From: Rhizobium jaguaris
Lineage (GTDB): Bacteria; Pseudomonadota; Alphaproteobacteria; Rhizobiales; Rhizobiaceae
NCBI RefSeq assembly: GCF_003627755.1
Contig: NZ_CP032696.1
Coordinates: forward strand, 486,564 to 550,563
DNA length: 64,000 nt
Reading direction: 5' to 3'
In this document: one piece after another, positions 18,388 to 41,870 of the stretch
Position numbering within the stretch: the stretch's first letter is position 1
How the letters are laid out: each line of letters opens with the position of its first letter
Position numbers and translations under genes: made by a program
The notes under the pieces: model-generated
Told to the model about the DNA's origin: nothing
Seen by the model: the letters and a program-made list of their open reading frames with translations, nothing else
Databases searched by the model: none

Positions 18388-18558
18388 ATGTCGCACGACC
18401 TCTCACTCGCCCAGTCCTACGCTTTCCAGCTCTCCCGCGACCTGATGGTCCCGGTCACGCTCTTCACCGTCGACGGCGAATACGGCGTCCTGCCGTCCGA
18501 CGAAATCGACGACGACGACGATCTTGAGATCGTTCACGAGTACACGCCTTGGCATTGA
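18388..18558 (+). CDS. Small acidic plasmid protein (56 aa)
   Basis: Starts MSHDLSLAQSYAFQLSRDL and ends in a very acidic stretch (SDEIDDDDDLEIVHEY). AAGGAG lies about 10 bases before the ATG. Similar short proteins occur on rhizobial plasmids next to DUF3991/toprim genes, but no function is known. First gene of the long + strand block. Confidence 0.6.
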   Translation: MSHDLSLAQSYAFQLSRDLMVPVTLFTVDGEYGVLPSDEIDDDDDLEIVHEYTPWH

Positions 18559-18749
18559 GCCGGCGCCATGGCCTTCGGCGTGCCGCTTGCGAGCGGCAGG
18601 CCGCAAGGGAGGCTTCGCCGCGGCCGACCTTGCATGATTCACCAAATTGCCAGCCGCGCCCTTGCCGCCTTTGCTCTTCGCGGCCGCTGAAGCGGCGGAC
18701 GAATAAAGCTGACGAATTGGAGGCGATCGCTCTCGCGATCGGAAGGAAA

Positions 18750-19802
18750 ATGGATAGAGGAGAAATAGAGGCGCTGCGCGAAAAGGTAAGCTGCGCCGCG
18801 GTGCTGGAGCAGACCGGGTTTGCCATAGACGTCAAGGAGAGCACCCGGCGAGCGGTGAAGTTTCGCCGCCGCGGAGAGATCATCATAGTGACGCATGAAG
18901 GGCGTGGATGGTTCGATCCGCTCAGCGACGCGAAAGGCGATGTCTTCGCCCTGGTCGAGCACCTCGACCGTGTCAGCTTTCCGGCATGTGTCGAGAAGGT
19001 CGCGAACCTCGTGGGGTTCGAAATTTCCGCGCCCGAGTGGCAGCCTCGCATTGCGGACGGCCAGTCCGAACTTTCCATTTCGGACCGTTGGCAGGCTCGG
19101 CGCTGCCCCTGGCCGGGCTCGTCGACCTGGCGCTACTTGCATGACGAGCGTTGCCTCCCGACGGCGATTATCCGCGCCGCGATCAAACGCAACCTTCTTC
19201 GCGAAGGTCCGCAAGGCAGCATGTGGGCCGCCCATTGGAACCAGGCAGGCGTTGTGACGGGCTGGGAGGCGCGCGGTCCGCAATACCGCGGGTTTGCCTC
19301 CGGAGGAAAGAAGGTCCTGTTCCGCCTCGGTTCGGATGCGCCGGTGCGCCTGGCCGTCACCGAAGCCGCAATCGACGCCATGAGCCTTGCGGCAATCGAG
19401 GGCCTGCGGGACGGCACGCTCTATCTCAGCACCGGCGGCGGCTGGTCGCCGACCACGGCCGCGGCACTTGGCGCGCTTGCGTCAGGTCCGAACATCCAGC
19501 TTGTCGCTGCCACCGACGCCAACCCTCAAGGCGATACGTTTGCCGAACGGTTGCGCGGGCTTGCCGACGAGGTCGGATGCGACTGGGTGCGACTTCGCCC
19601 GCCCGAAGAGGACTGGAATGAAGCTCTGAAGCTGCGCGCGAAGCGAGGTACTGAGAAAAGGAAAAGGGAGGATGGAGGGAAAGAGGGTGAGGCGTGCCGC
19701 ATGCGCACCGCCCGCGTCAAGGGAGGCTTCGCCCGGCTGAAGCCGGCCCTGGACCCGGGCGGTCGCGATGCCGGCGGCAGGCAAGGGGTCATGAAGGACT
19801 GA
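18750..19802 (+). CDS. DUF3991 and toprim-domain protein (primase-like)
   Basis: About 350 aa. The N-terminal half carries a CHC2/DUF3991-like region (LREKVSCAAVLEQTGFAID ... GRGWFDPLSDAKGDVFALVEHLD), as in proteins that handle primed DNA. The C-terminal half is a toprim domain, with the conserved Glu in RLAVTEAAIDAMSLAA and the D-x-N/D cluster in VAATDANPQGD. The family is typical of conjugative plasmids, and a role in priming or processing incoming single-stranded DNA is plausible but unproven. The open frame extends upstream to 18549; ATG 18750 is preferred because GGAAGG immediately precedes it and the upstream codons look non-coding. The last 60 residues are low-complexity and basic. Confidence 0.78.
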   Translation: MDRGEIEALREKVSCAAVLEQTGFAIDVKESTRRAVKFRRRGEIIIVTHEGRGWFDPLSDAKGDVFALVEHLDRVSFPACVEKVANLVGFEISAPEWQPRIADGQSELSISDRWQARRCPWPGSSTWRYLHDERCLPTAIIRAAIKRNLLREGPQGSMWAAHWNQAGVVTGWEARGPQYRGFASGGKKVLFRLGSDAPVRLAVTEAAIDAMSLAAIEGLRDGTLYLSTGGGWSPTTAAALGALASGPNIQLVAATDANPQGDTFAERLRGLADEVGCDWVRLRPPEEDWNEALKLRAKRGTEKRKREDGGKEGEACRMRTARVKGGFARLKPALDPGGRDAGGRQGVMKD

Positions 19803-19863
19803 AGAAGATGGAAGGGTCGAGAGGACCGTGCCGCGCTTCGTCCGCCCGCGCAAGGAGGCGCAG

Positions 19864-20463
19864 ATGACCTCTTCAATCCGCAAAGTGTTTCAAGGCGTCG
19901 CAACTCGCCCACAGATGTTTCGCATGTTCGACCGCCATGTCCAGCGGCCGAACCGCTGGGACGGTGACGCAACGCCGCTTTACGCCGGCGAATGGTTCGA
20001 AATCGCCGAAGCCGAGCACGACTACATGTTCGAGATCCTGCCGCCGCTCTGGATCCGCGGCTCGATGTTCGCGATGCGTGAATTCCTGACCAGCTCCGTG
20101 ACATCCGTGTTCTTCGCGCTCCGCATCGATGACGCGATCCGGTATTTTCATGCCTATTGCGACCTTTCAGACAAGACGTCCGTCGAGACCATGCGTGTCG
20201 CAATCATCGACCGGGAAAGTTGCCACATCCGCGCCATGACACGCGATGAGCGCCTCGAGCACATCTGGAGCACGACGGCCGACGACTATCGCGGCTATGC
20301 CGGTGCGCGTTGGCCGGCAGCGGCGCGTGGAAAACGGACGGTGCTGCTCTATGGCCGCAAAGAGGGCAGCTTCCTGAAGCTGCTCGAAGATCTCACCAAC
20401 GATGAGATCGCCGCCAAGCTGCCGGTGCAGTTGCGCCATCTCCCCTCACCGATCGCGGCATAG
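19864..20463 (+). CDS. DUF1419 domain protein
   Basis: 199 aa, beginning MTSSIRKVFQGVATRPQMFRMFDRH and containing GEWFEIAEAEHDYMFEILPPLW and RGSMFAMREFLTSSVTSVFFAL, which I recognise as the DUF1419 family found on rhizobial and agrobacterial plasmids. AAGGAGG at 19851-19857 sets the ATG at 19864. No membrane segment or catalytic motif is visible and the function is unknown. It lies between the toprim protein and the methylase-helicase, all on one strand. Confidence 0.8.
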   Translation: MTSSIRKVFQGVATRPQMFRMFDRHVQRPNRWDGDATPLYAGEWFEIAEAEHDYMFEILPPLWIRGSMFAMREFLTSSVTSVFFALRIDDAIRYFHAYCDLSDKTSVETMRVAIIDRESCHIRAMTRDERLEHIWSTTADDYRGYAGARWPAAARGKRTVLLYGRKEGSFLKLLEDLTNDEIAAKLPVQLRHLPSPIAA

Positions 20464-20466
20464 AAG

Positions 20467-20760
20467 GTGTTGCCATGCTCACTACCCGATCGCATCCGTG
20501 CGCGAGGCAATCGCCGGCGGATCGACTTCCTCGATGCCGAACAATCTAAGGCGATGATGGTGGCAAGCCCAGCCGCCACGCGTCGTCGCATCGTCTTCGC
20601 CTCAGTCGCCGTGCAGATGGTCAGGGTGGAGCGCGATGAGCGCTTTGCCGACCTTATACCGGCGGCCATGGACGCCGTCCCCTTCCATTCACTGCGAACA
20701 GCCTGCTGTCTTCCGCGACAGGAGGACGACGCTCGCGCTATCACAAGGAGCTTTCAATGA
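20467..20760 (+). CDS. Possible small ORF coupled to the methylase-helicase
   Basis: A 97-codon frame from a GTG; its TGA overlaps the ATG of the next gene (ATGA), which is the only argument for coding. No recognisable domain and no good ribosome site. It may be a degraded gene or a leader. Confidence 0.25.
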   Translation: MLPCSLPDRIRARGNRRRIDFLDAEQSKAMMVASPAATRRRIVFASVAVQMVRVERDERFADLIPAAMDAVPFHSLRTACCLPRQEDDARAITRSFQ

Positions 20761-23700
20761 GCAACGATCCCTTAACCCTCGACATCTTCGCCGGCCGCGC
20801 GCTGTCGTCTGGCATTGGCATCGGCGTCACCGCCTTTGGCGGTTTTGCCGCCAATGACGACGATCCGGATCCGACGACGCCTGCCCCTTCCCCCGCGCGT
20901 GCCCTCCCGCCTGCCATGCAGAAGGCGCAACGAAAGCAGGAAGCGCACGCCAACTTCTACCTCGACGACGGCGATCGCGGTTTGGCCGCCACCTGGAAGG
21001 AACGGGGGCGTTTAAGCATCGCGGCCATTCTCACAGCCGCTGAGATCGAGAGACAGGATCGGCCGGCAACGCGCGACGCGCAGGTTAGGCTGATACGCTT
21101 TACCGGTTTCGGCAGCTCTGAGCTCGCCAACGGCATGTTCCGCCGGCCGGGCGAAGCGGCCTTCCGCCACGGTTGGGAGGATCTCGCCCGTTCCCTGGAG
21201 GATTCGGTCACGGAAAGCGACTATGTCTCGCTTGCGCGCTGCACCCAATATGCTCACTTCACTCCCGAATTTATCGTCCGGGCGATCTGGACCGGCCTGC
21301 AGCGACTCGGCTGGCGCGGCGGCCGGGTGCTGGAACCCGCGATCGGGACAGGCCTGTTTCCGGCGCTGATGCCTGTCGGGTATCGTGACATCAGCTATGT
21401 CACCGGCCTCGAGCTCGATCCGGTCACGGCACGCATCGTACGGCTGCTGCAGCCACACGCACGCATCATCAACGCCGATTTCTCGCGCACGCAACTCTCG
21501 GCAATTTACGATCTTGCCATCGGCAATCCGCCCTTCTCCGATCGGACGGTCCGCTCCGACCGGCAATACCGTTCGCTCGGTCTGAGGCTACACGACTATT
21601 TCATTGCGCGCTCGATTGATCTCCTGAAGCCCGGCGGACTGGCGGCCTTCGTCACCAGCGCTGGAACGATGGATAAGGCCGACCGCACATGCCGCGATCA
21701 TATTGGAAAAGCCGCCGACCTGGTCGGCGCCATCCGGCTGCCTGAAGGCAGTTTTCGGCAAGACGCCGGCACCGACGTCGTCGTCGACATCCTGTTCTTC
21801 CGCAAGCGAAAGGCCGGCGAACCGGCAGGGGATCCGAGCTGGCTCGATGTCGAGGAGGTCCGCGGTGCGACCGAAGAGGAAGGTGTCATCCGCGTGAACC
21901 GGTGGTTCGCGCAGCATCCGGACTGCGTGCTCGGAGAGCACGCGCTGGCCTCCGGAGCCTTTGGCGAAACCTATACCTGCCTGCCTCGTGCCGGCGAAAG
22001 CGTGGATGTGGCCCTGAATGCCGCCGTTCAGCGTCTTCCCGAAGCTATCTATGACGGCGAGCCGACCGAAATTGACGTCGCTGTCGAAGACGAACTGGGC
22101 GACATCGTTGACTTGAGGCCCAACAGTACGCGTGTCCGTGAAGGCAGCTTCTTCATCGACAACAAGCAGGGCCTGATGCAGATGATCGACGGCTCTCCCG
22201 TGGCGGTTCGTGTCAGCCAAGGCCGCAGCGCCGACGGCGTGCCGGAAAAGCATGTCCGCATCATCAAGAAGCTGATCCCCGTCCGGGACGCGGTGCGCGA
22301 GGTCCTGAAAGGCCAGGAACTCGACCGGCCGTGGCGCGACGCCCAAGTGCGGCTGCGCATCGCCTGGTCAAGCTTCGTTCGTGACTTCGGGCCGATCAAC
22401 CATACGAGGGTTTCGATCAGCGAGGATGAAGAGACGGGTGAAGTCCGCGAAACGCACCGCCGCCCGAACCTTGCACCCTTCCTGGACGACCCCGATTGCT
22501 GGCTGGTCGCCTCCATCGAGGACTATGATCTCGAAACCGATACCGCCAGACCGGGCCCGATCTTTTCCGAGCGTGTCATCGCTCCGCCTGCCCCGCCTGT
22601 CATCACCTCCGCGGCCGATGCGCTCGCCGTCGTGCTGAACGATCGTGGTCATGTCGACCTCGGCCATATCGCCGAGCTTCTCCATTGCGACACAGATGCA
22701 GTTCTCGATGCGCTCGGCGACGCAATCTTTCGCGATCCCGCCGACGGCTCATGGCAAACCTCCGATGCCTATCTTTCGGGGGCCGTGCGAACGAAACTTG
22801 CTGCCGCCGCGGCTGCGGCCGAGCTCGATCCCGCCTATCGTCGGAATGTCCGCGCGCTCCAAGAGGTGCAGCCCGCCGATCTCCGCCCGTCCGATATCAC
22901 CGCTCGACTTGGCGCTCCCTGGATTCCGGCGGCCGACATCGTCGCTTTCATTTGCGAGACCATGGGTGCGGAGATCAGGATCCACCACATGCCGGAACTG
23001 GGCTCTTGGACCGTCGAGGCGCGGCAGCTCGGATGGACGGCGGCCGGGACATCCGAATGGGGAACAGATCGCCGGCACGCCGGCGAGTTGCTCGCCGATG
23101 CGCTGAACAGCCGGGTGCCGCAGATTTTCGATGTGTTCAAGGATGGAGACGGCGAGAGGCGGGTGTTGAACGTCGTCGATACCGAAGCGGCACGCGACAA
23201 GCTGCAAAAGATCAAGACGGCCTTCCAGGACTGGGTCTGGACCGATCCTGATCGTACCGACCGGCTGGCGCGGGTCTACAACGATCGCTTCAACAATATT
23301 GCGCCCAGGCGTTTCGACGGCTCACACCTAGTCCTGCCCGGCGCCTCTGGCGCCTTTGTTCTTTATGGGCACCAGAAACGCGGTATCTGCCGCATCATCT
23401 CGTCCGGCTCAACCTATCTCGCGCATGCCGTCGGCGCCGGCAAGACGATGACGATGGCGGCCGCCATCATGGAACAGCGCCGGCTCGGACTGATCTCCAA
23501 GGCGATGCTGGTGGTGCCCGGCCATTGCCTGGCCCAGGCTGCGCGCGAGTTTCTGGCGCTCTATCCGAACGCCCGCATTCTCGTCGCCGACGAGACGAAT
23601 TTTTCGAAGGACAAGCGGGCTCGCTTCCTTTCCCGCGCCGCTACCGCAACCTGGGATGCGATCATCATCACGCACTCGGCCTTCCGGTTCATCGCCGTGC

Positions 23701-25847
23701 CATCGAGTTTCGAGCAACAGATGATCCAGGATGAGCTCGAGCTCTACGAGGAACTGCTGACCAAGGTCGACAGCGAGGATCGAGTCTCGCGCAAGCGGCT
23801 CGAACGGCTGAAGGAGGGCCTCAAGGAACGGTTGGAGGCGTTGTCGACCCGCAAGGACGATCTGCTGACAATCTCGGAGATCGGCATCGACCAGATCATC
23901 GTCGATGAGGCACAGGAATTCCGCAAGCTTTCCTTCGCCACCAACATGTCTACGCTGAAAGGTATCGACCCGAACGGTTCGCAGCGTGCCTGGGACCTCT
24001 ACGTCAAGTCCCGCTTCATCGAGACGAAGAACCCCGGCCGGTCTCTGGTTCTGGCTTCGGGGACGCCAATCACCAATACGCTTGGCGAAATGTTCTCGGT
24101 CCAACGTCTGCTCGGTCACGCGGCGCTGACCGAACGCGGGCTGCATGAATTCGACGCCTGGGCCTCTACCTTCGGTGACACGACCACGGAACTGGAGATC
24201 CAGCCGTCGGGCAAATACAAGCCCGTCAGCCGTTTTGCGAGCTTCGTGAACGTGCCGGAGTTGATTGCGATGTTCCGGTCGTTCGCCGACGTGGTGATGC
24301 CCGAGGATCTCCGCGAATACGTCAAGGTGCCTGATATCTCGACCGGCCGCCGGCAGATTCTAACAGCCAAGCCGACGCAGGCCTTCAAGAACTATCAGAC
24401 GATCCTCGATGCCCGGATCAAGGCGATCGAGATGCGTGAGGGGCCGGCGCAGCCCGGCGACGACATCCTGCTTTCGGTCATCACCGACGGTCGCCACGCC
24501 GCCATCGATCTCCGTCTTGTCGATGCGGACAATGACAACGAGCCGGACAACAAGCTCAACCTGCTGGTCCAGAACGCTTTCCGCATTTGGCAGGAGACGT
24601 CGCAAAGCACGTTTGTGCGACCCGACGGCAAGTCCTTCGAACTGCCGGGCGCCGCGCAGATGATCTTCTCCGATCTCGGCACCATCAACGTTGAGAAGAG
24701 CCGCGGCTTTTCGGCCTACCGCTGGATCAGGGACGAGCTTGTGCGCATGGGCGTTCCGGCATCCGAAATCGCCTTCATGCAGGATTACAAGAAGACCGAG
24801 GCCAAGCAGCGGCTGTTTGCCGACGTCCGCGCCGGCAAGGTCCGCTTCCTGATCGGCTCGTCGGACACGATGGGCACCGGCGTCAATGCTCAGCTTCGCC
24901 TCAAGGCGCTGCATCATCTCGACGTCCCGTGGCTGCCCTCGCAAATCGAGCAGCGTGAGGGCCGGATCGTGCGCCAGGGCAACCAGCATGACGAAGTCGA
25001 TATTTTCGCATACGCCACGCAAGGGTCGCTCGACGCCTCGATGTGGCAGAACAACGAGCGCAAGGCCCGCTTCATTGCCGCAGCACTTTCCGGCGATACG
25101 TCGATCCGCCGGCTTGAAGATCTGGGCGAAGGGGCTGCAAACCAGTTCGCCATGGCCAAGGCGATTGCGAGCGGCGACGAACGGCTGATGCAAAAGGCAG
25201 GGCTTGAGGCAGACATCGCCCGTCTCGAACGGCTGCGGGCCGCTCACGAGGACGATCAATATGCTGTGCGCCGCCAGATCCGCGACGCCGAACGCGAGAT
25301 CGAGACGTCGACCCGCCGCGTCTTAGAGATCGGCACGGACCTTAAGCGCCTCGTGCCGACCGCTGGCGAAGCCTTCGCCATGACGGTTGTGGGCAAGCCC
25401 TACGACGAGCGCAAGCTTGCCGGTCGCGCGCTGATGAAGGAAATCCTCACGCTCGTTCAGTTGCAGCAGGAGGGCGAGGTTCAGATCGCGGCCATCGGGG
25501 GCTTCGATCTGATCTATTCGGGCGAGCGGTTCGGCAGGAACGACGGATATCGCTATACGACCCTCTTGCAGCGTACCAATGCGGCCCAGGAGATTGATCT
25601 GGCGGTGACCGTCACGCCGCTCGGCGCGGTCTCGCGGCTCGAACATGCACTCGACGGGTTCGACGAGGAACAGGCACGTTATCGCCGGCGGCTGCACGAC
25701 GCCGAACGGCGCCTTGCCTCCTATCGCACGCGCGAGGGCGGCATGTTCGCATTTGGAGATGAGCTTGCCGACAAGCGCCGGCAGCTTCGTGATGTCGACG
25801 AGGCATTGGCGACCGCGGCCATGACGGGACCCGCCGTGGCCGCATGA
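20757..25847 (+). CDS. Giant DNA methylase-helicase fusion (possible antirestriction protein)
   Basis: A 1696-aa protein combining an N6-adenine methyltransferase domain with a superfamily 2 helicase. The methylase catalytic motif NPPF is at 257-260, with upstream SAM-binding sequence GGRVLEPAIGTGLF. The helicase has Walker A VGAGKT (892-897), a DEAQ box (1050-1053), LVLASGTPITNT, and a C-terminal domain with SSDTMGTGVNAQ and QIEQREGRIVRQGNQ. Phage P1 DarB has the same combination and protects incoming DNA from restriction; an equivalent role for this plasmid protein is my inference. AAGGAG is 6 bases before the ATG, and a strong terminator follows at 26042-26072. Residues 1-80 are low in conserved features. 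Confidence 0.88.
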   Translation: MSNDPLTLDIFAGRALSSGIGIGVTAFGGFAANDDDPDPTTPAPSPARALPPAMQKAQRKQEAHANFYLDDGDRGLAATWKERGRLSIAAILTAAEIERQDRPATRDAQVRLIRFTGFGSSELANGMFRRPGEAAFRHGWEDLARSLEDSVTESDYVSLARCTQYAHFTPEFIVRAIWTGLQRLGWRGGRVLEPAIGTGLFPALMPVGYRDISYVTGLELDPVTARIVRLLQPHARIINADFSRTQLSAIYDLAIGNPPFSDRTVRSDRQYRSLGLRLHDYFIARSIDLLKPGGLAAFVTSAGTMDKADRTCRDHIGKAADLVGAIRLPEGSFRQDAGTDVVVDILFFRKRKAGEPAGDPSWLDVEEVRGATEEEGVIRVNRWFAQHPDCVLGEHALASGAFGETYTCLPRAGESVDVALNAAVQRLPEAIYDGEPTEIDVAVEDELGDIVDLRPNSTRVREGSFFIDNKQGLMQMIDGSPVAVRVSQGRSADGVPEKHVRIIKKLIPVRDAVREVLKGQELDRPWRDAQVRLRIAWSSFVRDFGPINHTRVSISEDEETGEVRETHRRPNLAPFLDDPDCWLVASIEDYDLETDTARPGPIFSERVIAPPAPPVITSAADALAVVLNDRGHVDLGHIAELLHCDTDAVLDALGDAIFRDPADGSWQTSDAYLSGAVRTKLAAAAAAAELDPAYRRNVRALQEVQPADLRPSDITARLGAPWIPAADIVAFICETMGAEIRIHHMPELGSWTVEARQLGWTAAGTSEWGTDRRHAGELLADALNSRVPQIFDVFKDGDGERRVLNVVDTEAARDKLQKIKTAFQDWVWTDPDRTDRLARVYNDRFNNIAPRRFDGSHLVLPGASGAFVLYGHQKRGICRIISSGSTYLAHAVGAGKTMTMAAAIMEQRRLGLISKAMLVVPGHCLAQAAREFLALYPNARILVADETNFSKDKRARFLSRAATATWDAIIITHSAFRFIAVPSSFEQQMIQDELELYEELLTKVDSEDRVSRKRLERLKEGLKERLEALSTRKDDLLTISEIGIDQIIVDEAQEFRKLSFATNMSTLKGIDPNGSQRAWDLYVKSRFIETKNPGRSLVLASGTPITNTLGEMFSVQRLLGHAALTERGLHEFDAWASTFGDTTTELEIQPSGKYKPVSRFASFVNVPELIAMFRSFADVVMPEDLREYVKVPDISTGRRQILTAKPTQAFKNYQTILDARIKAIEMREGPAQPGDDILLSVITDGRHAAIDLRLVDADNDNEPDNKLNLLVQNAFRIWQETSQSTFVRPDGKSFELPGAAQMIFSDLGTINVEKSRGFSAYRWIRDELVRMGVPASEIAFMQDYKKTEAKQRLFADVRAGKVRFLIGSSDTMGTGVNAQLRLKALHHLDVPWLPSQIEQREGRIVRQGNQHDEVDIFAYATQGSLDASMWQNNERKARFIAAALSGDTSIRRLEDLGEGAANQFAMAKAIASGDERLMQKAGLEADIARLERLRAAHEDDQYAVRRQIRDAEREIETSTRRVLEIGTDLKRLVPTAGEAFAMTVVGKPYDERKLAGRALMKEILTLVQLQQEGEVQIAAIGGFDLIYSGERFGRNDGYRYTTLLQRTNAAQEIDLAVTVTPLGAVSRLEHALDGFDEEQARYRRRLHDAERRLASYRTREGGMFAFGDELADKRRQLRDVDEALATAAMTGPAVAA

Positions 25848-26041
25848 TGCTAAGCCAAGCTCAGTTCGCGGCAGGGTTTTGGAAGCAGCGCAGCATGCGC
25901 ATAGCTGCATTGCACAATAAATGTCTTCCGCCTGATCAAAAAACGTCCATACTGCACACAGCTGATGCACATGGCGGCCTCTCCTCCCGGTGCCGCCGCA
26001 ACAGCTGTTCCCCTCTGGAGGTTTATTGACCTTCACACTTC

Positions 26042-27247: not shown

Positions 27248-29020
27248 ATGCAACTGATGAAAGTCGATCCGCGTGCGCTGAAGGACAACCCCGACAATAC
27301 GCGCCAGTCGAAGTCGACGCCGCAGGCCGACGCCCTGCTTTTGGCGACGATCAGGGCCGTCGGCGTGATCCAGCCGCCGGTCATTTTCCCGGAAGCCGGG
27401 GGCAATGGCTACATCATCGAAGCGGGTCACCGGCGTACCCGCATGGCGGTCGCCGCCGGTCTCGAGGAAATCGACGTGATTGTCGTGGAGGCAGCCAACG
27501 ATAACGGCGCCATGCGCTCGATGGTCGAAAACATCGCGCGCGAGCCGCTCAATCCAGTCGATCAATGGAGAGGCATCGAGCGCTTGGTCGCGCTCGCCTG
27601 GACCGAGGAGGCGATCGCCGTGGCGCTCGCGCTTCCCGTCCGCCAGATCCGCAAGCTCCGCCTGCTCGCAAATGTGCTTCCCTCCATGCTCGACCAGATG
27701 GCGAAGGGCGACATGCCCAACGAGCAGCAGCTGCGAACGATCGCGGCTGCCTCACTGGAGGAGCAGAAAGAGGTCTGGAAAGCCCACAAGCCGAAGAAGG
27801 GAGATACGGCAGCCTGGTGGCAGATCGCCAACGGGCTCTCGAAAACCCGCATGTATGCCCGCGATGCAAGCTTCGGCGACGATCTCCGCCTGGCTTACGG
27901 TATCGAGTGGGCCGAGGACCTGTTCGGCCCGGCCGATGAGGACAATCGCTACACCACCAATGTCGAGGCATTCCTCGGCGCTCAGCAGGAATGGATGACG
28001 AGCAACCTTCCGAAGAAGGGCGCGATCGTCGAGGTCAATAATTGGGGCCAGCCCGACCTGCCCAAGAAGGCCGAACGCATCTACGGCAAGCCGGCCAAGG
28101 GCGATTGCACCGCGATGTATCTCGATCGCGACGGGAAGGTGCAGAGCGTCCACTACCGGATGCCGGAAGGCAGGAAACCCGATGGCCGATCCGGTCCGGC
28201 AGGAGACGGAGCGACTGAAGTTGACGATGAGCCCGCCGTTGGCACGACCAGGCCCGACGTCACGCAGAAGGGCCAGGACATGGTCGGTGATTTCCGTACC
28301 GATGCGCTGCACGAGGCGCTGGCTAGGACGCCGATCGAGGACGACATGTTGATGGCGCTCCTGGTCATGGCCTTCGCCGGCACCAATGTTCGGGTCGATT
28401 CCGGGGCCAACGACACCGTGTTCGGCCCGAAGCGTTTCCAGCGTCATGTCGCGCGCCTCTTTTCCGCAGACGGAAGGCTCTCGCTCGAGATGGACAACCT
28501 GCGTATCGCCGCCCGCTCCGTGCTCATTGACGTGCTCTCGTGCCGGCGCGGCATGTCGAACAGCGGCGCCGTCTCTCGCATTGCCGGCGAGGCAATCGGC
28601 GCGGACGGTTTCCTGCCGAACATGGGAACGGAGGATTTCCTCCTGTGCCTGTCGCGTCAGGCGCTGGAGGCGGCCGCCAAGTCGGTCAATATCCTACCGC
28701 GGGCTCGCGTCCGCGAAACCCGCGCAGCGCTTGTCGACCATTTCGCATCGGCCGGCGCGAGCTTCGTCCTTCCGGCGGCGCTGTTCCAGCCCGATCCGAA
28801 AGAAATAGCCGATCTCATGAAACATGCCGATGACGTCGAGGAAGAGAATGGCCCGGGCGAAGAAGCAGCCGGCGATATCGGTGACGATATCCAGCCAGAC
28901 AATAGCGGCGGCGCTGGCGGTTCTGATCTTCCGGATCTGGATGGCGCAAATTGCGGCGCCGGCTCAGCAGATAAAGCCTCCGACGAGGACGAAGCCGCCT
29001 ACGGGATTGCGGCGGAATAG
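27248..29020 (+). CDS. ParB N-terminal domain protein (plasmid ParB-like nuclease/partition family)
   Basis: 590 aa. Residues 1-100 form a ParB/Sulfiredoxin-type domain: KVDPRALKDNPDNTRQSKS, then AVGVIQPPVIFPE and the box IEAGHRRTRMAVAAGL. NIAREPLNPVDQWRGIERL matches the ParB helix-turn-helix lead-in. The C-terminal 250 residues have no recognised domain and end in a long acidic tail. Proteins of this type on rhizobial plasmids are distinct from RepB; they have been described as ParB-like nucleases or regulators, but the role is not settled. AAGGAG sits 8 bases before the ATG. It stands alone, with its own leader and a terminator-like hairpin after the stop. Confidence 0.82.
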   Translation: MQLMKVDPRALKDNPDNTRQSKSTPQADALLLATIRAVGVIQPPVIFPEAGGNGYIIEAGHRRTRMAVAAGLEEIDVIVVEAANDNGAMRSMVENIAREPLNPVDQWRGIERLVALAWTEEAIAVALALPVRQIRKLRLLANVLPSMLDQMAKGDMPNEQQLRTIAAASLEEQKEVWKAHKPKKGDTAAWWQIANGLSKTRMYARDASFGDDLRLAYGIEWAEDLFGPADEDNRYTTNVEAFLGAQQEWMTSNLPKKGAIVEVNNWGQPDLPKKAERIYGKPAKGDCTAMYLDRDGKVQSVHYRMPEGRKPDGRSGPAGDGATEVDDEPAVGTTRPDVTQKGQDMVGDFRTDALHEALARTPIEDDMLMALLVMAFAGTNVRVDSGANDTVFGPKRFQRHVARLFSADGRLSLEMDNLRIAARSVLIDVLSCRRGMSNSGAVSRIAGEAIGADGFLPNMGTEDFLLCLSRQALEAAAKSVNILPRARVRETRAALVDHFASAGASFVLPAALFQPDPKEIADLMKHADDVEEENGPGEEAAGDIGDDIQPDNSGGAGGSDLPDLDGANCGAGSADKASDEDEAAYGIAAE

Positions 29021-29049
29021 CCGCCCCGTCTCACTGGCCCGATGTTCCA

Positions 29050-29068
29050 CCGCCGGACCTCCCGGCGG
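29050..29068 (+). terminator. Possible terminator after the ParB-domain gene
   Basis: Perfect stem CCGCCGG/CCGGCGG with a 5-base loop, followed by CGGTTTCATTT. The T tract is weak, so it may instead be part of the leader of the next gene. Confidence 0.4.
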
Positions 29069-29110
29069 CGGTTTCATTTCCACCACCCGAAACAATGCAA
29101 GGAGGATGCG

Positions 29111-29587
29111 ATGTCCGCGTCTCTGATTTATGACCTCGCCCCGATCGGCTCCATCGTCGCCTGGTCGGATGGTACCCCGCGACCGCCCGAGCGGTTCAGG
29201 AAGAAGCTTGCTGCATGGAAGACCCGCAACAGCCATGGCCGCTTGATCCGCAAGGAAGGTGAGCGCAACGTCGGCACTACCAGCATTTTGCCGTATTTCA
29301 CGCTTCACGAGGGTGATCTCGGGGCAAACGGCGTCATCGCCATCCGTATCCACCGGACCTTTTCGCTTGATAGCGGTCTGACGTTTAAAGTCGTCGGGCG
29401 TCCCGCGCTTGGATCTGTTCGCGTCTTCGATCGCCCCGGCGCCAATGCAGAGCTGGTTCATCTGGCGGACAATCGGCAGGCGGCCGCGGAATGGCTCAGC
29501 CGGCATGGATATCCGCATGCCGTTCTTTCGGAGGTGACTGCCGACGAGGTCGCCGCGGATGAGATCGAAGGGAGAACTGCAGCATGA
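29111..29587 (+). CDS. Conserved plasmid protein of unknown function (158 aa)
   Basis: Starts MSASLIYDLAPIGSIVAWSDGTPRPPERFRKKL. AAGGAGG (29098-29104) fixes the ATG at 29111. No motif, signal peptide or membrane segment recognised. The stop overlaps the start of the DUF7007 gene (ATGA), so the pair is cotranslated and probably functions together. I know similar proteins only as hypothetical genes on rhizobial plasmids. Confidence 0.72.
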   Translation: MSASLIYDLAPIGSIVAWSDGTPRPPERFRKKLAAWKTRNSHGRLIRKEGERNVGTTSILPYFTLHEGDLGANGVIAIRIHRTFSLDSGLTFKVVGRPALGSVRVFDRPGANAELVHLADNRQAAAEWLSRHGYPHAVLSEVTADEVAADEIEGRTAA

Positions 29588-31229: not shown

Positions 31230-31581
31230 TGTCAACGAGCCGGATGGTCGGAGATGAGCCGGAGCGCCTGTCGTTTCGTTCGAGGAACTTCACGATTTCC
31301 CCATGCCGGATCGCCCTTCGGTTTGCTGCGGTCTGAACCGGCCGCCGTGCCTTCAAGGCCGCTGTCGCGCCGCGGGGCGGCCGGACCCCGCCGCCCATCA
31401 CGGAGCAGGCTCGCGTGCTCTTTCGGGGGCAGATTGCCCTCTTCGCACGCAAACCGGCTCCGTTTGTCCAGGCAGGGCCGGACCCTGAAGCGCACGTCTT
31501 CCGCCGGTTCGGGGTGACCGCACCGAAGGGCAAGCCGGCATGGGCCGGAGCCGCTTCGGAGGACCTCGAAAGGAAACGACC
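31230..31581. other. GC-rich leader region
   Basis: About 350 bp without a supported gene, rich in GC inverted repeats, ending in CCTCGAAAGGAAACG directly before the gene at 31582. Minus-strand frames here are shadows. Confidence 0.45.
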
Positions 31582-32169
31582 ATGGCCAAGCCCGCACCCT
31601 CCTCTCGCCAACCCGCGCGCGTCGCGCAACCGCGCAAGGGCGCCACCATCGAGATGGTCCGGCTGACCTGCCCGGACGCGAGCCAGGCGCTCAAGATCGC
31701 CGAGAGTTTCGGCACCGCCATCATCGACAGCGACGGCATTCGCGACCTGCACGAACGCCTTGTCATAGAGGCAGCAGATGCGCTCGGCGACGGGCTGAGC
31801 GACAAGGCCATGCAGATCCACCTGCAGCGCATCGTCGGTGCCTTCGTCGGCTCGGCCCACGGCGCCGGCCAGTTCTATAGCCGCGCTGTCACAGAGGCGC
31901 GCGATGCCACGGCCAAGGCCGCCAACGATGCCCGCGACGAGGACATCGACGGACCCGTCGGCTATGACAGCGCCGCCCAGCGCAAGCGGGAATTCGCGGC
32001 CGACATGGGCATACAGGCCCATTCTCTCAGAATGGCAGCCGAAGGCGCCGTCGCCGCCTATGCGCAGGTAATTGGCGAGACCTGGAAGCCGTTCGATCGA
32101 CCGGTCGAACAGCCGGGCGCTTCGCTGAGCCGCAAGGCGGCGCAAGCGCAGATTTCCGCCTTCGACTAG
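31582..32169 (+). CDS. Conserved plasmid protein of unknown function (195 aa)
   Basis: Starts MAKPAPSSRQPARVAQPRKG with a basic N-terminus, followed by a mostly helical body (EMVRLTCPDASQALKIAESFG, LSDKAMQIHLQRIVGAFVG). The ATG at 31582 is chosen because AAAGGA precedes it; the frame extends upstream to 31540 without support. No enzyme motif seen. Similar proteins are widespread and uncharacterised on rhizobial plasmids. A strong terminator follows. Confidence 0.7.
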   Translation: MAKPAPSSRQPARVAQPRKGATIEMVRLTCPDASQALKIAESFGTAIIDSDGIRDLHERLVIEAADALGDGLSDKAMQIHLQRIVGAFVGSAHGAGQFYSRAVTEARDATAKAANDARDEDIDGPVGYDSAAQRKREFAADMGIQAHSLRMAAEGAVAAYAQVIGETWKPFDRPVEQPGASLSRKAAQAQISAFD

Positions 32170-33957: not shown

Positions 33958-34064
33958 AATGATGATTGGATTATCGTTTGGCCATAGGGAATATTTGACG
34001 CAAATCTCGTCTCGACGGCTTTGCCCGTGGACCTGATAGTGCAAGCATTGGATCGAGAGACATA

Positions 34065-34793: not shown

Positions 34794-35052
34794 TCCTGAG
34801 GGATTGCTCCGGCTCTCAACCCTCCTCGATATATCTAATCCTCTAAGCCGGCTGATGGGGCTGAGGCGCAGGGCTTTGCCTTGCCGCCCGCAGCCGGCCC
34901 GGCGTGGTCGGAGCGCGCGATGCCCGGCGCACCCGCGCAACGGCTGATCGCCGTCCTCCGCTTACGCTTCGGCTCTGCGAGTGCGCGACTGCACCTGAGG
35001 TATCGCAATCCGCTGCTCCGACGCCGGGACAGGCCCCGGCGGAGAAGGAGCA

Positions 35053-36087
35053 ATGACTATGACAAGACAAAAAATCAGAAACAGCCGCCCGAGCGGGCGC
35101 CTGGAGAGGAAGAGGAGGGCCGGAGTCGGGCGGTCGGTTGAAGGGGCGACAGAGGCTCGCGCCGCCGGCCGCGGAGATTCCCCAATGTCCAGGTCTCCCA
35201 CTTCGGCCAAGCGTGCCGATGTCTATTCGCGCGTCACGGCCGAGATCATTGCCGCGATCGAGCAAGGTGCCGGCGAATGGCGTGCACCTTGGTTCCACAA
35301 CGGCACGGGCGTCGCGCGTCCGACCAACGTTTCATCCGGCAAGCGATACCGCGGCATCAATACGCTGGCCCTCTGGACCGCAGGCTTCGCAGCCGGATAT
35401 GGCGATGGCCTCTGGGGCACCTACAAGCAATGGCAGGATGTCGGCGCGCAGGTGCGTGAAGGGGAACGATCCACCACAGTCGTTTTGTGGAGGGAGATTC
35501 AGTTTTCCCGGCAGGCCGACAATGAAGACGATGATGACGAGTATCGGCGGATGTTCGCCCGCGCATTTTCCGTCTTCAACATCGCGCAGGTTGACGGCTA
35601 CGAGCGGCCGGATACGACCGTGCTGTCCGAGGCTGAGCGTCTCGCCCATGCGGAAGCGTTCATCGCGAACTTGGACGTCAAGTCTGAGTTCGGCGGGTCG
35701 GAAGCCTATTACCGCCCGTCGGCCGACACCGTGTTCATGCCGCCGTTCACTTCATTCCGCGACGCCGCGTCATTCTACGGTGTCTGGCTGCACGAGACCG
35801 GCCATGCCAGTGGTGCAAAGCACAGGCTCGACCGCGATCTTTCCGGGCGCTTCGGATCAGCGGCCTATGCCGCCGAAGAATGCTGCGTGGAAATTCTCAG
35901 CGGGCTCGTCCTGGCTGATCTCGGCATCGCTCACCGTCCACGGCCCGATCATGCTGCCTATGTCGCCTCGTGGCTCAAAGTCCTGAAGGACGATCCCAGG
36001 GCCATCTTCACCGCAGCGAGCAAGGCGCAGCAGGCGGCCGACTGGATGCACGCCCAGCAGCCCCAGACAGAGGAGATGGCGGCATGA
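35053..36087 (+). CDS. ardC: ArdC-type antirestriction protein with zinc-protease domain
   Basis: Up to 344 aa. The N-terminal domain, which binds single-stranded DNA in ArdC, is seen in KRADVYSRVTAEIIAAIEQGAGEWRAPW and GKRYRGINTLALW. The C-terminal zincin-like domain carries HETGHASG (the HExxH zinc site) and FGSAAYAAEECCVEILSGLV. ArdC of plasmid pSA protects incoming single-stranded DNA from host restriction. AAGGAG (35044-35049) precedes ATGs at 35053 and 35059; 35059 has the better spacing. The first 45 residues are basic and variable, and ATG 35185 would give the core protein alone. The stop overlaps the start of the next gene. Confidence 0.88.
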   Translation: MTMTRQKIRNSRPSGRLERKRRAGVGRSVEGATEARAAGRGDSPMSRSPTSAKRADVYSRVTAEIIAAIEQGAGEWRAPWFHNGTGVARPTNVSSGKRYRGINTLALWTAGFAAGYGDGLWGTYKQWQDVGAQVREGERSTTVVLWREIQFSRQADNEDDDDEYRRMFARAFSVFNIAQVDGYERPDTTVLSEAERLAHAEAFIANLDVKSEFGGSEAYYRPSADTVFMPPFTSFRDAASFYGVWLHETGHASGAKHRLDRDLSGRFGSAAYAAEECCVEILSGLVLADLGIAHRPRPDHAAYVASWLKVLKDDPRAIFTAASKAQQAADWMHAQQPQTEEMAA

Positions 36088-36542: not shown

Positions 36543-36947
36543 AGATCCTCCAGGCGACGAATCGCAAGGCGCGAGGACAGGGCGAAGAATGGGCAACGCA
36601 ACGCCCCGTGGTAAGCTGTCTACGGCGTTCTTTGGTTCGACATGCGGGCATGGCAAACGGACCAAATGTCGCGGGGTTCGGGCAGGCAGTCGGGGATGAG
36701 CCGCCATTGCCATATTCCTCGGACCTCTGCGGCAAGCCACGTCCTTCGCGGGCTCGATGTGGCATGTCTGATCGAAGAACGGCTTCGCCTCGATCGTCTT
36801 CCCGCAACGGCCTTCCAAAACTTTCTTCCCCTGAGCGCTATGCGCTCATTCCTCGCGGAACAACAAAGTTTCTCCTGGCCGCCCTCCACCTCGTTCCGGC
36901 CCTCCGGGTGCGGACAGATCGTCCCCGATCCTTGTGACAGCCATCGA

Positions 36948-36966
36948 GGCCGCGATGGGCGCGGCC
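36948..36966. repeat. Leader hairpin of DUF736 gene
   Basis: Perfect GGCCGCG/CGCGGCC inverted repeat with a 5-base loop, ending 24 bases before the DUF736 start. Another perfect hairpin (GAGCGC/GCGCTC, 36833-36847) lies further upstream. Confidence 0.7.
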
Positions 36967-36990
36967 CGAAACAGCGAAAGGAATACGACA

Positions 36991-37302
36991 ATGGCAACCA
37001 TCGGCACCTTTACCACTTCCGAATCCGGCTTCAACGGCTCGATCCGCACCCTCGCCCTCAACGTCAAGGCCCGCATCGCCCGGATCGAGAACCCCTCCGA
37101 CAAGGGCCCGCACTTCCGCATCTACGCAGGCAATGTCGAGCTCGGCGCCGCCTGGCAGAAGCGCTCCGAGCAGACGGATCGCGACTACCTCTCGGTCAAG
37201 CTCGACGACCCGAGCTTCCCCGCCCCGATCTACGCAACGCTCACCGAGGTCGACGGCGAGGAAGGCTACCAGCTGATCTGGTCCCGCCCCAACCGCGACT
37301 GA
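36991..37302 (+). CDS. DUF736 domain protein
   Basis: 103 aa, starting [21 protein letters not shown] and containing [21 protein letters not shown], the DUF736 signature. Small proteins of this family are frequent on plasmids and integrative elements of alphaproteobacteria and have no established function. AAAGGA lies about 10 bases upstream. Upstream DNA (36543-36947) holds no supported gene, only GC-rich leader with hairpins. A strong terminator follows, so it is a single-gene unit. Confidence 0.88.
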
Positions 37303-37741: not shown

Positions 37742-37915
37742 ATGACCACTATCGATCAGATCAACGAGCTGCGTGCTGAGCTTCGCAGCTGCCTCTTCGC
37801 CCCGGAAGAACGCGCCGCGGCCGAAGCCGAACTGGCTGTCCTTGTTGCACAGGCTCGGGCCGAGGAAGAGCAGTTTGAACGTGACATCAAAACATTTCTA
37901 GCCGACCTCGAGTGA
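37742..37915 (+). CDS. Small helical protein (57 aa)
   Basis: MTTIDQINELRAELRSCLFA, then continuing as an almost wholly charged, helical, probably coiled-coil protein. AGGAG lies about 11 bases before the ATG. Function unknown; similar small proteins occur near DUF736 genes on rhizobial plasmids. Confidence 0.6.
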   Translation: MTTIDQINELRAELRSCLFAPEERAAAEAELAVLVAQARAEEEQFERDIKTFLADLE

Positions 37916-39263: not shown

Positions 39264-41183
39264 TCACAAGGTTATCGACTTCCGCCCCCACTGAAACGAC
39301 TTCCCATTGATGCAGTCCTTCATGTCGCGGCGGCGAAACCAAATCGCACGTCCACACCGGAGTGCGGGGTTTCCTGCTGTGAATACGATTTGCTCGTCCG
39401 CGCGCATGCGCAACACTTCATGCGGCTGGATCAGCGGGCGTGCGGCAAGTTGTTTCGATCGCGTTCGCGACGATCCCCTGGATTGGAAACTGCGACTGAC
39501 CTGATCTATCTCGACCGTCGTCATGCCGGAGCGGCGGGAGATGTAATCGGCGGTCTCAGGATCATTGATCGCGGCAAAGGATATCCAGCTTGCGCTTTCG
39601 AACCATTTGCTTGTCGCGTCCCGTCCACCATAAGTCTCGCGCATCTGTCCGATCGACTGGTAGATCATGGTGAGCGTGATCCCATACTTGCGGCCGGCGT
39701 CACGCGCGGTCTCGAGGATACGCATGTAGCCGAGGCGCGCCACCTCATCGAGAAGGAAGAGCGTCCTGCCCTGTATCTCGCCGTTCAGGTTGCACATCGC
39801 GTTCAGAAACGACCCGATGATGACACGCGCCAGACCTGAATGCATCTCCAGCGTCTTGAGGTCGATGTTGATGAAGACGTCCGTCTTTCCGCCGGCGAGA
39901 TCGCCCGTCGTGAAGGTCGTTCCCGAGACTAGGGCGGCGTAGTTCGGGTAGGACAGCCAATGCGTTTCCTTCACAGCATTAGCGTAGACGCCGGAGAAAG
40001 TTTCCGGCGTCATGTTGACGAAGGCCGCCACATTTTCCTTGACGAAATCCGACTCCGAATTGTCGTAGATCGATTGCAAACGTTCACGCAACTTGGGCTC
40101 CGGCTCTGAGAGATTCTTGCGCACCTGACGGAGGGTCTGGTCGTTTTCTATCGTGTGGCCGGAGAGGCAAACGTCGGCGATGAGCGCCGTCAGCAATTGC
40201 AAGGCCGAGGCACGGAAGAAGTCGTCGCGGAGACCGCGCGCGCCACTGTCGCTCACAACCCACGATGCAACGGACGCGATGTCCTCCTCTTTCGTTCCGC
40301 CGAAACGGCCGATCCAGTCGAGAGCGTTGAAGCCGATCTCCGAGTGTTTCGGATCGAGGATGAAGACGTCGCGGTTGCCGCCTCGGTGTTTCGACGCCAT
40401 CGGCGCCACCTCGTTCGACGGATCGAGGATGATGAGTGCGCCGCCCCATTTAAGCGCTGTCGGGATCGTGACCGACGTCGTCTTGAAGCCGCCGGAGCCG
40501 GCAAAGACTATGCCGTGCGACGAGCCGAATGAGCCGTCGAAGCAAAGGAGCGGCGAGGTGCCGCCTGCGCCCCACGTCTCGGCGCGGTCGGCTCGAAACG
40601 ATTGTGCGGCGACGCTGTCCGTGTCGACGCGGTAGCGTTCGCCGATGACGATGCCGCCGTCCTCGGGAAACAGCTGTTCGGCTTGCGACAGTTTCATCCA
40701 ATCGGCCTCGCCGTGCAGAGCGCGCTTGCCATAGATGCGTTTCGGCTCGGCCTTGGCGAAGGCGGCGTTGCCGGCGATCACCACCCGCATGCCGAACAAC
40801 GCCGACATCAGCACGACTGCCGCCCCGATTGCTGTCGCGGGATCGAGGTAATTGAAGAGGAACCTGCCGGCCGGAACCTGTTCCCGAAACGCAGAGAGCC
40901 TCATTGCCTCGCGTAGGACCGCAACGAGGACCGTCGCTATCGCTCCGGCGACGACGCCCCATCCTGCTGTCCTGATCCGCACGGATCCGGCGCTCGCAAA
41001 CAGGAGGACGATGCCTTCGAAGGACGCGACGATATAGGGCAAAGCGATGCCAACGCGGCCTAGTATCTGCCGTGCGGTATCCGTCTTGCCGAAAGCGGAA
41101 AGCCATTTTTCGATCCCGGTCATGCCGATCGCCGTGGAGATCATCAATGCGCAGGGTACAACGAACAACAGGATTCTAGTCAT
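39264..41183 (-). CDS. traG: Conjugative coupling protein TraG (VirD4 family)
   Basis: The type IV coupling ATPase, about 639 aa, which links the relaxosome at oriT to the mating channel and pumps DNA. The N-terminal 170 residues contain several membrane helices; the Walker A motif is in [21 protein letters not shown] and the Walker B region in [14 protein letters not shown]. The frame begins at 41210, but ATG 41183 ([14 protein letters not shown]) matches Ti-plasmid TraG and overlaps the end of traD by 8 bases. Third gene of the leftward traC-traD-traG operon. Intact. Confidence 0.94.
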
Positions 41184-41391
41184 CAATCTCTCCGAACGCC
41201 TCAGCACCAATTATGGTGAGCCGTGAGCGCTCTTGCTCGTCTCCCTTCAGCCGCCCGGCGGCATCGATGAGGAGCCCGAGCAGCAGAGCCCGCTTCTCGT
41301 AGCGCAGCCCCGCCTTCACGATCAGGCCGCCGAGCTCGATCTTTTCGCGGGTGTCCTTCTTGCGGGCGTCGGAAATGGTGATTCTTCGCAT
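41176..41391 (-). CDS. traD: Conjugal transfer protein TraD (Ti type)
   Basis: 71 aa, [20 protein letters not shown], followed by [20 protein letters not shown]. This matches the small TraD of Ti plasmids, a relaxosome accessory protein unrelated to F-plasmid TraD. It sits 4 bases after traC and overlaps the start of traG, so the three are one tightly packed operon. Confidence 0.9.
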
Positions 41392-41395
41392 CCGC

Positions 41396-41692
41396 TCAAG
41401 CCTCGCCAGTGCCGCTCTGAGCCGCGCCAGACGGGTTTTGCGCGGGGGGCGTGCTGCTCTCGCCGGCGCCAGGCGCTCTTTTCGCTCCGGTCGAACCCGT
41501 CTTTCCTCCGCGAAAGCGTTTCGCCAGATCCTCGAACGCTGCCTGCAGTTCCCCTTCCTCGATTACGATCTCGCCGAGTCCGGCCTTGAGCGCGATCCGG
41601 CCGATGCGCTCGGCCTCGCGGGTCTCAGCGAGCTTGAGCTGCTCCTGGAGCTTGGCGATTTCGCCACGAATTTTCGAGGATGGTTTCTTCAC
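41396..41692 (-). CDS. traC: Conjugal transfer protein TraC (Ti type, relaxosome accessory)
   Basis: 98 aa: [20 protein letters not shown], then [19 protein letters not shown], and a Gly/Pro-rich tail. It resembles Ti-plasmid TraC, which assists the TraA relaxase at oriT. The frame extends upstream to 41848, but GTG 41692 aligns with the family start (VKKPSSK). First gene of the leftward operon and adjacent to oriT. Confidence 0.87.
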
Positions 41693-41751
41693 GTCCTGAC
41701 GTCTCCCTGGGTGCGAAAGCTTGTCTTTCGGACTCCATCTTCCGGATGTCG

Positions 41752-41764
41752 GTGCGAAACGCAC
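41752..41764. promoter_or_regulatory. Candidate TraR operator between traC and traA
   Basis: Palindrome GTGCG-AAA-CGCAC about 60 bp upstream of traC. Ti plasmids carry an 18-bp tra box with GTGCA half-sites in the same place. The motif GTGCGAAAC recurs upstream of traI (60171). Confidence 0.45.
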
Positions 41765-41838
41765 TACTGTGAATCCTACAATCGCCAAGGGCGATGCTTT
41801 CGTGGATGATCCCGGCCGCTCGACAAGAGCGGCATCCG

Positions 41839-41870
41839 AAGGGCGCAATTATACGTCGCTGTCGCGACGT
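41839..41870 (-). other. oriT: Origin of conjugative transfer (oriT)
   Basis: On the minus strand the order is a 7-bp inverted repeat (ACGTCGC/GCGACGT, 41853-41859 and 41864-41870), then TAATTGCGCCCTT (41839-41851). This closely matches the RSF1010/Ti-type oriT core TAAGTGCG^CCCT with its hairpin on the 5' side. The predicted nick is between G and CCC, about 41843/41844. Location between traC and traA is the standard one for Ti plasmids. The strand assignment predicts transfer starting leftward. Confidence 0.85.

Follow-up and report, generated by a model that had tools for sequence, protein, structure and literature searches.

The 18-39 kb block to the left of the origin of transfer (oriT) of a Rhizobium jaguaris plasmid is, in our reading, its leading region, and several units in it are preceded by a putative single-stranded promoter that would act on the incoming strand as Frpo does in the F plasmid. 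We give this reading a probability of about 60%. The window analysed was a 64,000-nt stretch (GCF_003627755.1, NZ_CP032696.1, positions 486,564 to 550,563, forward strand), and the evidence consists of the oriT layout, the strand of the genes, a hairpin and a core with their position and orientation, and base-pair covariation. The candidate element is an imperfect hairpin of roughly 150-310 nt on the minus (T-) strand. Upon entry into the recipient the T-strand would fold, a polymerase would start on the folded strand, and the adjoining gene would be copied in the direction of oriT ahead of second-strand synthesis; the element is expected to be silent when the plasmid is double-stranded. The hairpins would probably let the first-entering genes be read while the plasmid is still single-stranded.

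The origin and direction of transfer

An RSF1010-type nick core with at most one mismatch was found once in the window, between traC and traA. Read 5' to 3' on the minus strand, which we take by analogy with RSF1010 to be nicked between 41844 and 41843, this oriT is 5'-ACGTCGC-GACA-GCGACGT-A-TAATTGCG^CCCT-3'. When two mismatches were allowed, the core pattern had three matches in the window against 3.4 expected and was thus not rarer than chance, so the identification is based on position and the adjoining hairpin. The nick core was present on the minus strand at most 300 bp upstream of traA in 81 of 83 traA loci (the window counted in), and all 81 carried a 7-bp arm pair (at most two mismatches) directly 5' of it, which agrees with the original observation of a hairpin on that side and strand. 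The gene order traCDG / oriT / traAFBH and the core TAATTGCGCCCT with its adjoining hairpin are those of the Ti-type tra region with an RSF1010-like oriT, and the oriT itself shows no difference here. With the hairpin so placed, transfer would, on the RSF1010 analogy, proceed leftward into the 18-39 kb block. This layout, together with the relaxase gene on the opposite side, suggests that the block is the leading region. The genes traG, traD and traC would enter first, and the incoming strand is unusable as their template.

Table 1. Features of the window in order of position
Feature	Position	Strand	Remark
Hairpin over the start of the 54-aa ORF	18171..18397	-	weaker; score 15.5; in the window alone not significant
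54-aa ORF	18388-18552	+	opens the toprim unit
54-aa ORF, DUF3991/toprim, DUF1419, N6-methylase/SNF2-type helicase	18388..25847	+	
Methylase-helicase	20757-25847	+	
ParB (NCBIfam plasmid partitioning protein)	27248-29020	+	
ParB, 158-aa protein, DUF7007	27248..30468	+	
Long imperfect hairpin upstream of the 195-aa gene	31270..31580	-	ends 2 nt before the start codon
195-aa conserved protein	31582..32169	+	without Pfam family
Second element core	34910..34994	-	26.6 bits; precedes the inserted, divergent ArdC
ArdC (ArdcN + MPTase-PolyVal)	35053..36087	+	
58-aa ORF match	36375-36542	-	strand exception in the block
Long imperfect hairpin upstream of DUF736	36695..37002	-	score 19.0; stem base spans RBS and start codon
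Element core in the DUF736 hairpin	36838..36921	-	model R1, 80.8 bits
DUF736	36991..37302	+	
57-aa ORF	37742..37915	+	
WGR gene	38523-38777	-	strand exception in the block
traG, traD, traC	39264..41692	-	enter first if transfer is leftward
oriT	41840..41870	-	hairpin 41870..41853, then nick core 41851..41840
traA, MOBQ (MobA/MobL) relaxase	41947..45258	+	lagging side

Strand and content of the block

The conserved genes of the block lie on the + strand, and therefore the incoming minus strand is their template. This had been noted for the major genes and was confirmed, with the WGR gene and the 58-aa ORF as exceptions. When tblastn matches covering at least half of the query were counted, DUF736 (75/75), ArdC (37/37) and the 195-aa protein (25/25) were all on the + strand, and WGR (66/66) and a thermonuclease (47/47) were all on the - strand. 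Eight annotated plasmids have the core genes in the same order and on the same strand, with insertions on either strand. In the proposed comparison of gene orientation relative to oriT across Ti-type plasmids, the inferred leading position and the template orientation were both conserved. With so little variation in order and strand among relatives, the shared strand says little by itself.

The block had also been named an antirestriction block. The inferred leading position stands, but the label goes too far, as ArdC is the only established antirestriction family in it. ArdC lies near oriT and is read from the T-strand, as in an anti-defence island, and it is the one such gene. The first ardC of the window lies in two pieces (32410-32627 and 36093-36356); the intact copy is divergent and sits within an inserted stretch. 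The abstract of PMC7213743 describes the ArdC of R388 as required in recipients, not in donors.

Long hairpins upstream of several units

An MFE z-scan of the window placed neither the 31270-31580 nor the 36695-37002 hairpin among its top 40 windows, and it gave way to stem-alignment scoring and a comparison between loci. The first stem scoring (gap 2.0) did not separate the signal from shuffles and was recalibrated before the locus scans. The hairpin upstream of the 195-aa gene scored 23.0, and it was the sole hairpin of the window to exceed the highest value from 384 kb of shuffled sequence (22.5). The DUF736 hairpin scored 19.0 and the one at the 54-aa ORF 15.5; five sites elsewhere in 380 kb of this genome had higher scores over shorter spans. 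The hairpins of the DUF736 and 195-aa types span about 300 nt, the size of Frpo1/2 of the F plasmid. For the hairpin over the 54-aa ORF, four of six orthologues were above the 95th percentile of shuffles. The 57-aa ORF of the window had no adjoining hairpin above shuffles and no R1 core, and an exact-repeat search of the block returned scattered coding similarity only.

With thresholds of a span of at least 150 and a score of at least 19, the leading sides of 81 loci, which are related by descent so that counts across them are not independent, held 61 hairpins against 3 in shuffled sequence; the lagging sides held 2 against 1. Among upstream regions, 95% of those of the 195-aa gene (n=21) and 92% of those of DUF736 (n=63) scored above the 95th percentile of shuffles, compared to 1-8% for traA, traB, traC, traD and traG and 3% for WGR. 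Few of the toprim (1/8), helicase (0/6), ParB (2/9) and 158-aa (1/9) genes had a hairpin of their own above this percentile, and these genes would therefore need an upstream unit or a normal promoter. The predicted likeness to the leading region of F is accordingly supported for the genes preceded by long hairpins or the core, and is not supported as worded for these four. The resemblance of hairpins and core to the single-stranded promoters of F in size, place and strand is an addition to what was predicted.

A conserved core in the hairpins

In the DUF736, ArdC and 57-aa types, the apical part of the hairpin contains a core with two small stems and the T-strand consensus GCACCn-gaa-nGGCCGnAAC-GNA-GTGGAGG. 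It is found in front of ArdC, DUF736 and, in relatives, a 57-aa gene (hyp57b), at a fixed spacing of about -93 to -110 to the start codons of these unrelated genes. A search for hyp57b in the window did not find it; the 57-aa ORF of the window was considered and rejected as a different gene. A regular expression of the core gave 97 matches on the + strand of the leading side, 0 on the - strand and 4 on the lagging side. All 126 matches of model R1 in 82 Ti-type loci were on the T-strand of the leading side, where R1 was built from 47 sequences, 46 of them drawn from the same 82 loci. The pRet42a-type plasmid is among the carriers of these elements. One R1 match inside traG (40238-40320, 21.8 bits) was taken as chance. 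Rfam gave no match to the elements between 17.5 and 42.5 kb of the window; the only match was the sRNA ar15, elsewhere.

A survey of 18 further genomes yielded 55 elements, of which 21 had no relaxase gene in range. All 34 with a relaxase gene within 45 kb (16 RlxS, 11 MOBQ and 7 other PF03432) pointed toward it, and the relaxase gene was on the strand of the adjoining gene. The elements of this survey (n=52) were above the 95th percentile in 73% of cases against 11% of 208 random places. Elsewhere, three opposite-sense elements were seen on MOBQ contigs (L170, L179 and L187); 33 of 36 fit.

Folding and the strand that folds

The third pair of the small stem occurred as CG (14), GC (14) and UA (13), with a covariation score of.400 against.122 when shuffled. 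In the long DUF736 stem 10 pairs were changed on both sides, and the score of.168 (.112 shuffled) was reached in 0 of 500 shuffles. Covariation in the long 195-aa stem was weak, with 2 such pairs, as in shuffles, and a score of.075 against.055. G.T wobbles on the T-strand exceeded the expectation from composition for DUF736 (94:31), ArdC (24:11) and non-Ti elements (92:42), and the Frpos of F showed an excess in the same direction (20:8); the 195-aa type was strand-neutral (41:38). After correction by shuffling, the fold z was lower on the T-strand for non-Ti elements (14/17), the 57-aa type (15/16) and the 54-aa type (11/15), but the T-strand was no better for DUF736 (6/17) or ArdC (9/18). 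Uncorrected stability (DUF736 60/62, 195-aa 18/20) was set aside because it partly reflected G+T composition, and only the corrected test was used; coding-region controls showed equal or larger strand differences. The wobble and stability tests favor T-strand folding in several, not all, gene sets.

Discussion

In the DUF736 and 195-aa types the base of the stem covers the RBS and start region, which may in addition affect translation: a read-through mRNA with both arms would be translated poorly, and one begun inside the downstream arm would not suffer this. The same placement, and the strand-neutral wobble of the 195-aa type, would fit structured mRNA leaders, in which a hairpin in the transcript hides the RBS and governs translation independently of conjugation. 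We consider this unlikely: where wobbles are conserved they read G.T on the template strand, which would turn into A.C in mRNA (at one DUF736 pair, 29 of 31 sequences have GT), the core elements are confined to a single strand of the leading side, and Rfam matched none of the elements between 17.5 and 42.5 kb of the window. Slightly less likely again are primer sites for single-strand initiation of second-strand synthesis in place of gene promoters. T-strand hairpins suit either role, and Frpo is itself called promoter and primer site in the title of a work cited by PMC9849209, but a fixed core spacing to the start codons of unrelated genes would be unexpected for a primer.

One conserved core before several unrelated genes could also be a double-stranded DNA site at which a plasmid-encoded regulator controls a regulon of the leading region. 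The compensating changes that preserve pairing while the sequence varies, and the strand-specific wobble in several sets, make this decidedly improbable. The near-constant order and strand in relatives would be expected from an inherited operon-like segment without function, its orientation common by descent; covariation in the stems and an orientation toward the relaxase that RlxS, MOBQ and other PF03432 elements share leave this with hardly any likelihood.

Early expression from the incoming strand has so far rested on F-type and IncI1 enterobacterial plasmids. If the elements work as single-stranded promoters, the same strategy, with a sequence signature of its own, would be used by symbiosis and Ti-type plasmids and by ICE-like elements of Rhizobiaceae and other Alphaproteobacteria. 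With the signature, leading regions could be recognized and candidate anti-defence genes collected, among them those for the DUF736, 195-aa, 57-aa and 54-aa proteins without known function, and the question of which genes are transcribed from the plasmid in single-stranded form would become testable in rhizobial matings. A bolder proposal, which we regard as possible but doubtful, is that the alphaproteobacterial conjugative elements share a kind of single-stranded promoter not described before. It would consist of a T-strand hairpin containing a conserved two-stem core, be used across MOBQ, RlxS and other PF03432 systems, be recognized otherwise than through the -35/-10 of Frpo, and also serve as a translational lock that restricts synthesis of its gene products to strand entry. 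In open-licence PMC full text we found no earlier description of such elements in rhizobia. According to PMC11541004, leading-region anti-defence islands likewise combine an antirestriction gene close to oriT with genes whose template is the T-strand and Frpo-like candidates upstream, and the search by Samuel et al. 2024 used known Frpo/ssi sequences and a -35/-10 consensus; the terms 'rhizob', 'agrobacter', 'mobq' and 'ArdC' are absent from its main text.

The elements are like Frpo1/Frpo2 of F and ssi of ColIb-P9 in lying in the leading region upstream of T-strand-templated genes, the three opposite-sense elements excepted, and like the approximately 317-nt Frpo they are long imperfect T-strand hairpins. 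They differ in their conserved apical core, hosts and relaxases, and the stem ends at -2 to +11 relative to the start codon, compared to -46 in Frpo. No sequence homology to the Frpos of F, the only ones compared, was detected. A sigma-70 box scan found no canonical -35/-10 in the elements and no enrichment, but it is uninformative because the Frpos of F fail it as well. A pattern derived post hoc from the core (GCCGnAACGnnGTGRAG) had zero mismatches on the T-strand of F (L225) at 10296 and 15685; its weight-matrix score of 12.5 did not reach the 95th percentile of maxima from shuffled sequence (14.7), and we therefore treat the resemblance as a lead only. As a positive control, the same stem measure gave Frpo2 and Frpo1 spans of 317 and 318 and scores of 20.5 and 28.

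Block genes and direction of transfer

The window forms the final 64 kb of the 550,563-bp contig C3, which carries tra, trb and a repABC-like region, and the host Rhizobium is near strains with 98–100% identical TraA. The same oriT core occupied the same place in 81 of 83 traA loci, with the arm pair in 81/81 of those. In RSF1010, the strand with hairpin, core and nick is the cut strand and its 3′ side is first in. Applied to the window oriT, this layout predicts that the plasmid enters leftward, through traC, traD and traG and then the 18–39 kb block. The traA of the window was on the lagging side, which enters last, in keeping with the relaxase-position rule used by Samuel et al. (PMC11541004), by which the relaxase is on the lagging side. 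The Rhizobiales sRNA Atu_Ti1 was found on the minus strand downstream of traA, near 14.3 kb, in 4/4 searched loci (L046, L056, L078 and L110).

The 54-aa ORF, DUF3991/toprim, DUF1419, methylase-helicase, ParB, 158-aa, DUF7007, 195-aa, ArdC, DUF736 and 57-aa ORF genes were all on the + strand. Relatives had the same genes on the same strand, and their WGR and thermonuclease genes were constantly on the other. Since the loci share kinship, gene orientation alone is weak evidence. The original prediction of a leading region with the transferred strand (T-strand, here minus) as template was right in outline, as to layout and strand, and a candidate mechanism is now added. The term antirestriction block holds for ArdC, the sole known antirestriction family there. 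According to the R388 data drawn on here (PMC7213743), recipients need ArdC and donors do not, which fits early expression.

Coordinates of oriT, element matches and neighboring features (L-numbers, compared DNA regions)
Feature	Region	Position	Strand	Remark
oriT	window	41840-41870	minus	between traC and traA; 7-bp hairpin, then TAATTGCG^CCCT
First ardC, in two parts	window	32410-36356		N-terminal 32410-32627, C-terminal 36093-36356
Integrase-like sequence (Phage_int_SAM_1)	window	32751-33563		between ardC parts
Divergent intact ArdC	window	35053-36087		between ardC parts; own element core 34910-34994
sRNA ar15 (alphaproteobacterial)	window	25960-26071		117.2 bits; leading region, between helicase and ParB genes
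116-aa and 135-aa genes of relatives	window	30501-31214		each matched in two pieces, which suggests frameshifts
Inserted phospholipase D-like genes, two Sinorhizobium plasmids	L231; L232	9970-11673; 9894-11597	opposite to leading block
Second DUF736 gene with own element core	pEmeITTGR7a (L229)	1821-1906		past toprim end of block
Background R1 match	L123	8168-8251 (C3:408168-408251)		27.2 bits; same plasmid, ~114 kb from oriT
Opposite-sense R1 elements	L170; L179; L187	3782; 1751; 17526		on MOBQ contigs
Element on C4, other plasmid of same genome	L203	9928-10011		strong hairpin (35.5); near DUF932 and ParB genes
Third long hairpin of F	L225	8481-8719		score 30.5; ends 37 nt 5′ of F antirestriction gene
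GCCGCAACGACGTGAAG in both F Frpos	L225	10296-10312; 15685-15701	T-strand	resembles rhizobial core

Long hairpins upstream of certain genes

Self-matches on the opposite strand revealed imperfect inverted repeats, ~300 nt in length, in the regions directly upstream of DUF736 and the 195-aa gene. In the window by itself, the 195-aa hairpin alone exceeded all window shuffles, and other places in the same genome outscored the window hairpins, but with shorter spans. Short strong palindromes of ~90–260 nt in L126, L129, L130 and L118, all from this genome, also scored above leading-region hairpins.

The weight of the hairpin evidence is in the cross-locus comparison. Upstream regions exceeded the 95th percentile of shuffles for 195-aa (95%, n=21), DUF736 (92%, n=63), hyp57b, the 57-aa gene of relatives (71%, n=31), hyp54, a 54-aa gene (44%, n=41), and ArdC (33%, n=24), and just 1–8% of control regions upstream of traA, traB, traC, traD and traG did so. 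A gene-independent scan gave 61 hairpins on the leading side, which enters first, vs 3 in shuffles, and 2 vs 1 on the lagging side. In a deeper set of up to nine plasmids, with the plasmids scored per gene as denominators, hairpins passed for 195-aa (9/9), DUF736 (9/9), hyp57b (4/4), the 54-aa opening ORF (4/6), DUF1419 (5/9), ArdC (5/9) and the 54/57-aa ORFs (4/8); few or none passed for toprim (1/8), helicase (0/6), ParB (2/9), 158-aa (1/9) and 163-aa (0/4). This pattern across the block genes indicates that the hairpins tag certain units, not all genes.

A conserved core on the T-strand

A core motif was located 93–110 nt 5′ of the start of ArdC (19/24), DUF736 (42/63), hyp57b (23/31) and the divergent ArdC (3/3). 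An alignment of 47 core sequences resolved into a pair of small stems. In the first of these, the third base pair was CG in 14, GC in 14 and UA in 13 sequences, and 94.3% of cells were paired vs 79.1% in shuffles. RNAalifold unaided recovered both stems, with one second-stem pair as C-G in 31 and T-A in 13.

The covariance model of the core, R1, gave 126 matches in the 82 Ti-type loci that had supplied 46 of its 47 training sequences; every one (126/126) lay on the leading side in T-strand orientation, with positions rechecked in 18 loci. In the window, R1 scored 80.8 bits at the DUF736 copy and 26.6 bits at that of the divergent ArdC, with weaker matches that included one within traG. The background, 380 kb from other parts of this genome and 22 kb of F, gave two matches at E<=1, one of them on the same plasmid.

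Which strand folds

Wobble tells the strands apart and pairing alone does not. After dereplication of the sequences and against a composition null, G.T pairs of the T-strand outnumbered those of the coding strand for DUF736 (94:31, p 1.7e-4), ArdC (24:11, p.006) and non-Ti elements (92:42, p.0017), with 17:6 for hyp57b (p.095) and 20:8 for F (p.18). In the same test the 195-aa type had no bias (41:38), and the traA, traB, traC and traG controls were neutral. The composition-corrected fold z was lower on the T-strand for non-Ti elements (14/17), hyp57b (15/16), hyp54 (11/15), 195-aa (7/9, p.055) and F (3/3), and did not favor it for DUF736 (6/17) or ArdC (9/18). Thus, the tests concur for non-Ti elements and hyp57b and diverge for DUF736, ArdC and 195-aa. 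With structures predicted from the same alignments, long-stem covariation was weak for 195-aa, and for DUF736 it was clear, at 10 pairs and 49 cells (.168 vs.112).

Elements in other genomes

R1 matched 51 of 101 Rhizobiaceae genomes and 17 of 240 genomes of the class, the genome of the window being counted in both. Among 40 regions retrieved around matches, those showing Ti-type tra genes had 33/36 elements in leading-side position and T-strand sense; the other three were of opposite sense. Relaxases were located in 18 of the 51 genomes, a set outside which the genomes of these three fall. Within the 18, a relaxase was <=45 kb away for 34 of 55 elements, with two contigs taken as circular, and 34/34 read toward a relaxase that shared their strand (16 RlxS, 11 MOBQ, 7 other PF03432). 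Hairpins passed at 73% of 52 elements (78% of 18 non-Ti, 71% of 34 Ti-like) vs 11% of 208 random places. The element on C4 is 44 kb ahead of a PF03432 relaxase, if that contig is circular.

Comparison with the single-stranded promoters of F

As a positive control, the same hairpin score was applied to F, giving a span of 317 and a score of 20.5 for Frpo2 and a span of 318 and a score of 28 for Frpo1. In the F work drawn on here (PMC9849209), recipients express genes early from Frpo1/2. The rhizobial elements resemble these promoters in size, place and strand, but not in sequence. They probably work like Frpos, and the T-strand hairpins would be a candidate mechanism for early reading of leading-region genes from the incoming strand; the elements may have promoter activity, act early in the zygote and lock translation. 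We did not class them as Frpos because sequence homology to the F Frpos was looked for and not found. A box scan, which misses the boxes of F too, found no -35/-10 at the rhizobial elements. The weight-matrix score of the F Frpo resemblance to the rhizobial core was not above shuffles. The same hairpin score also marked a third long hairpin on F.
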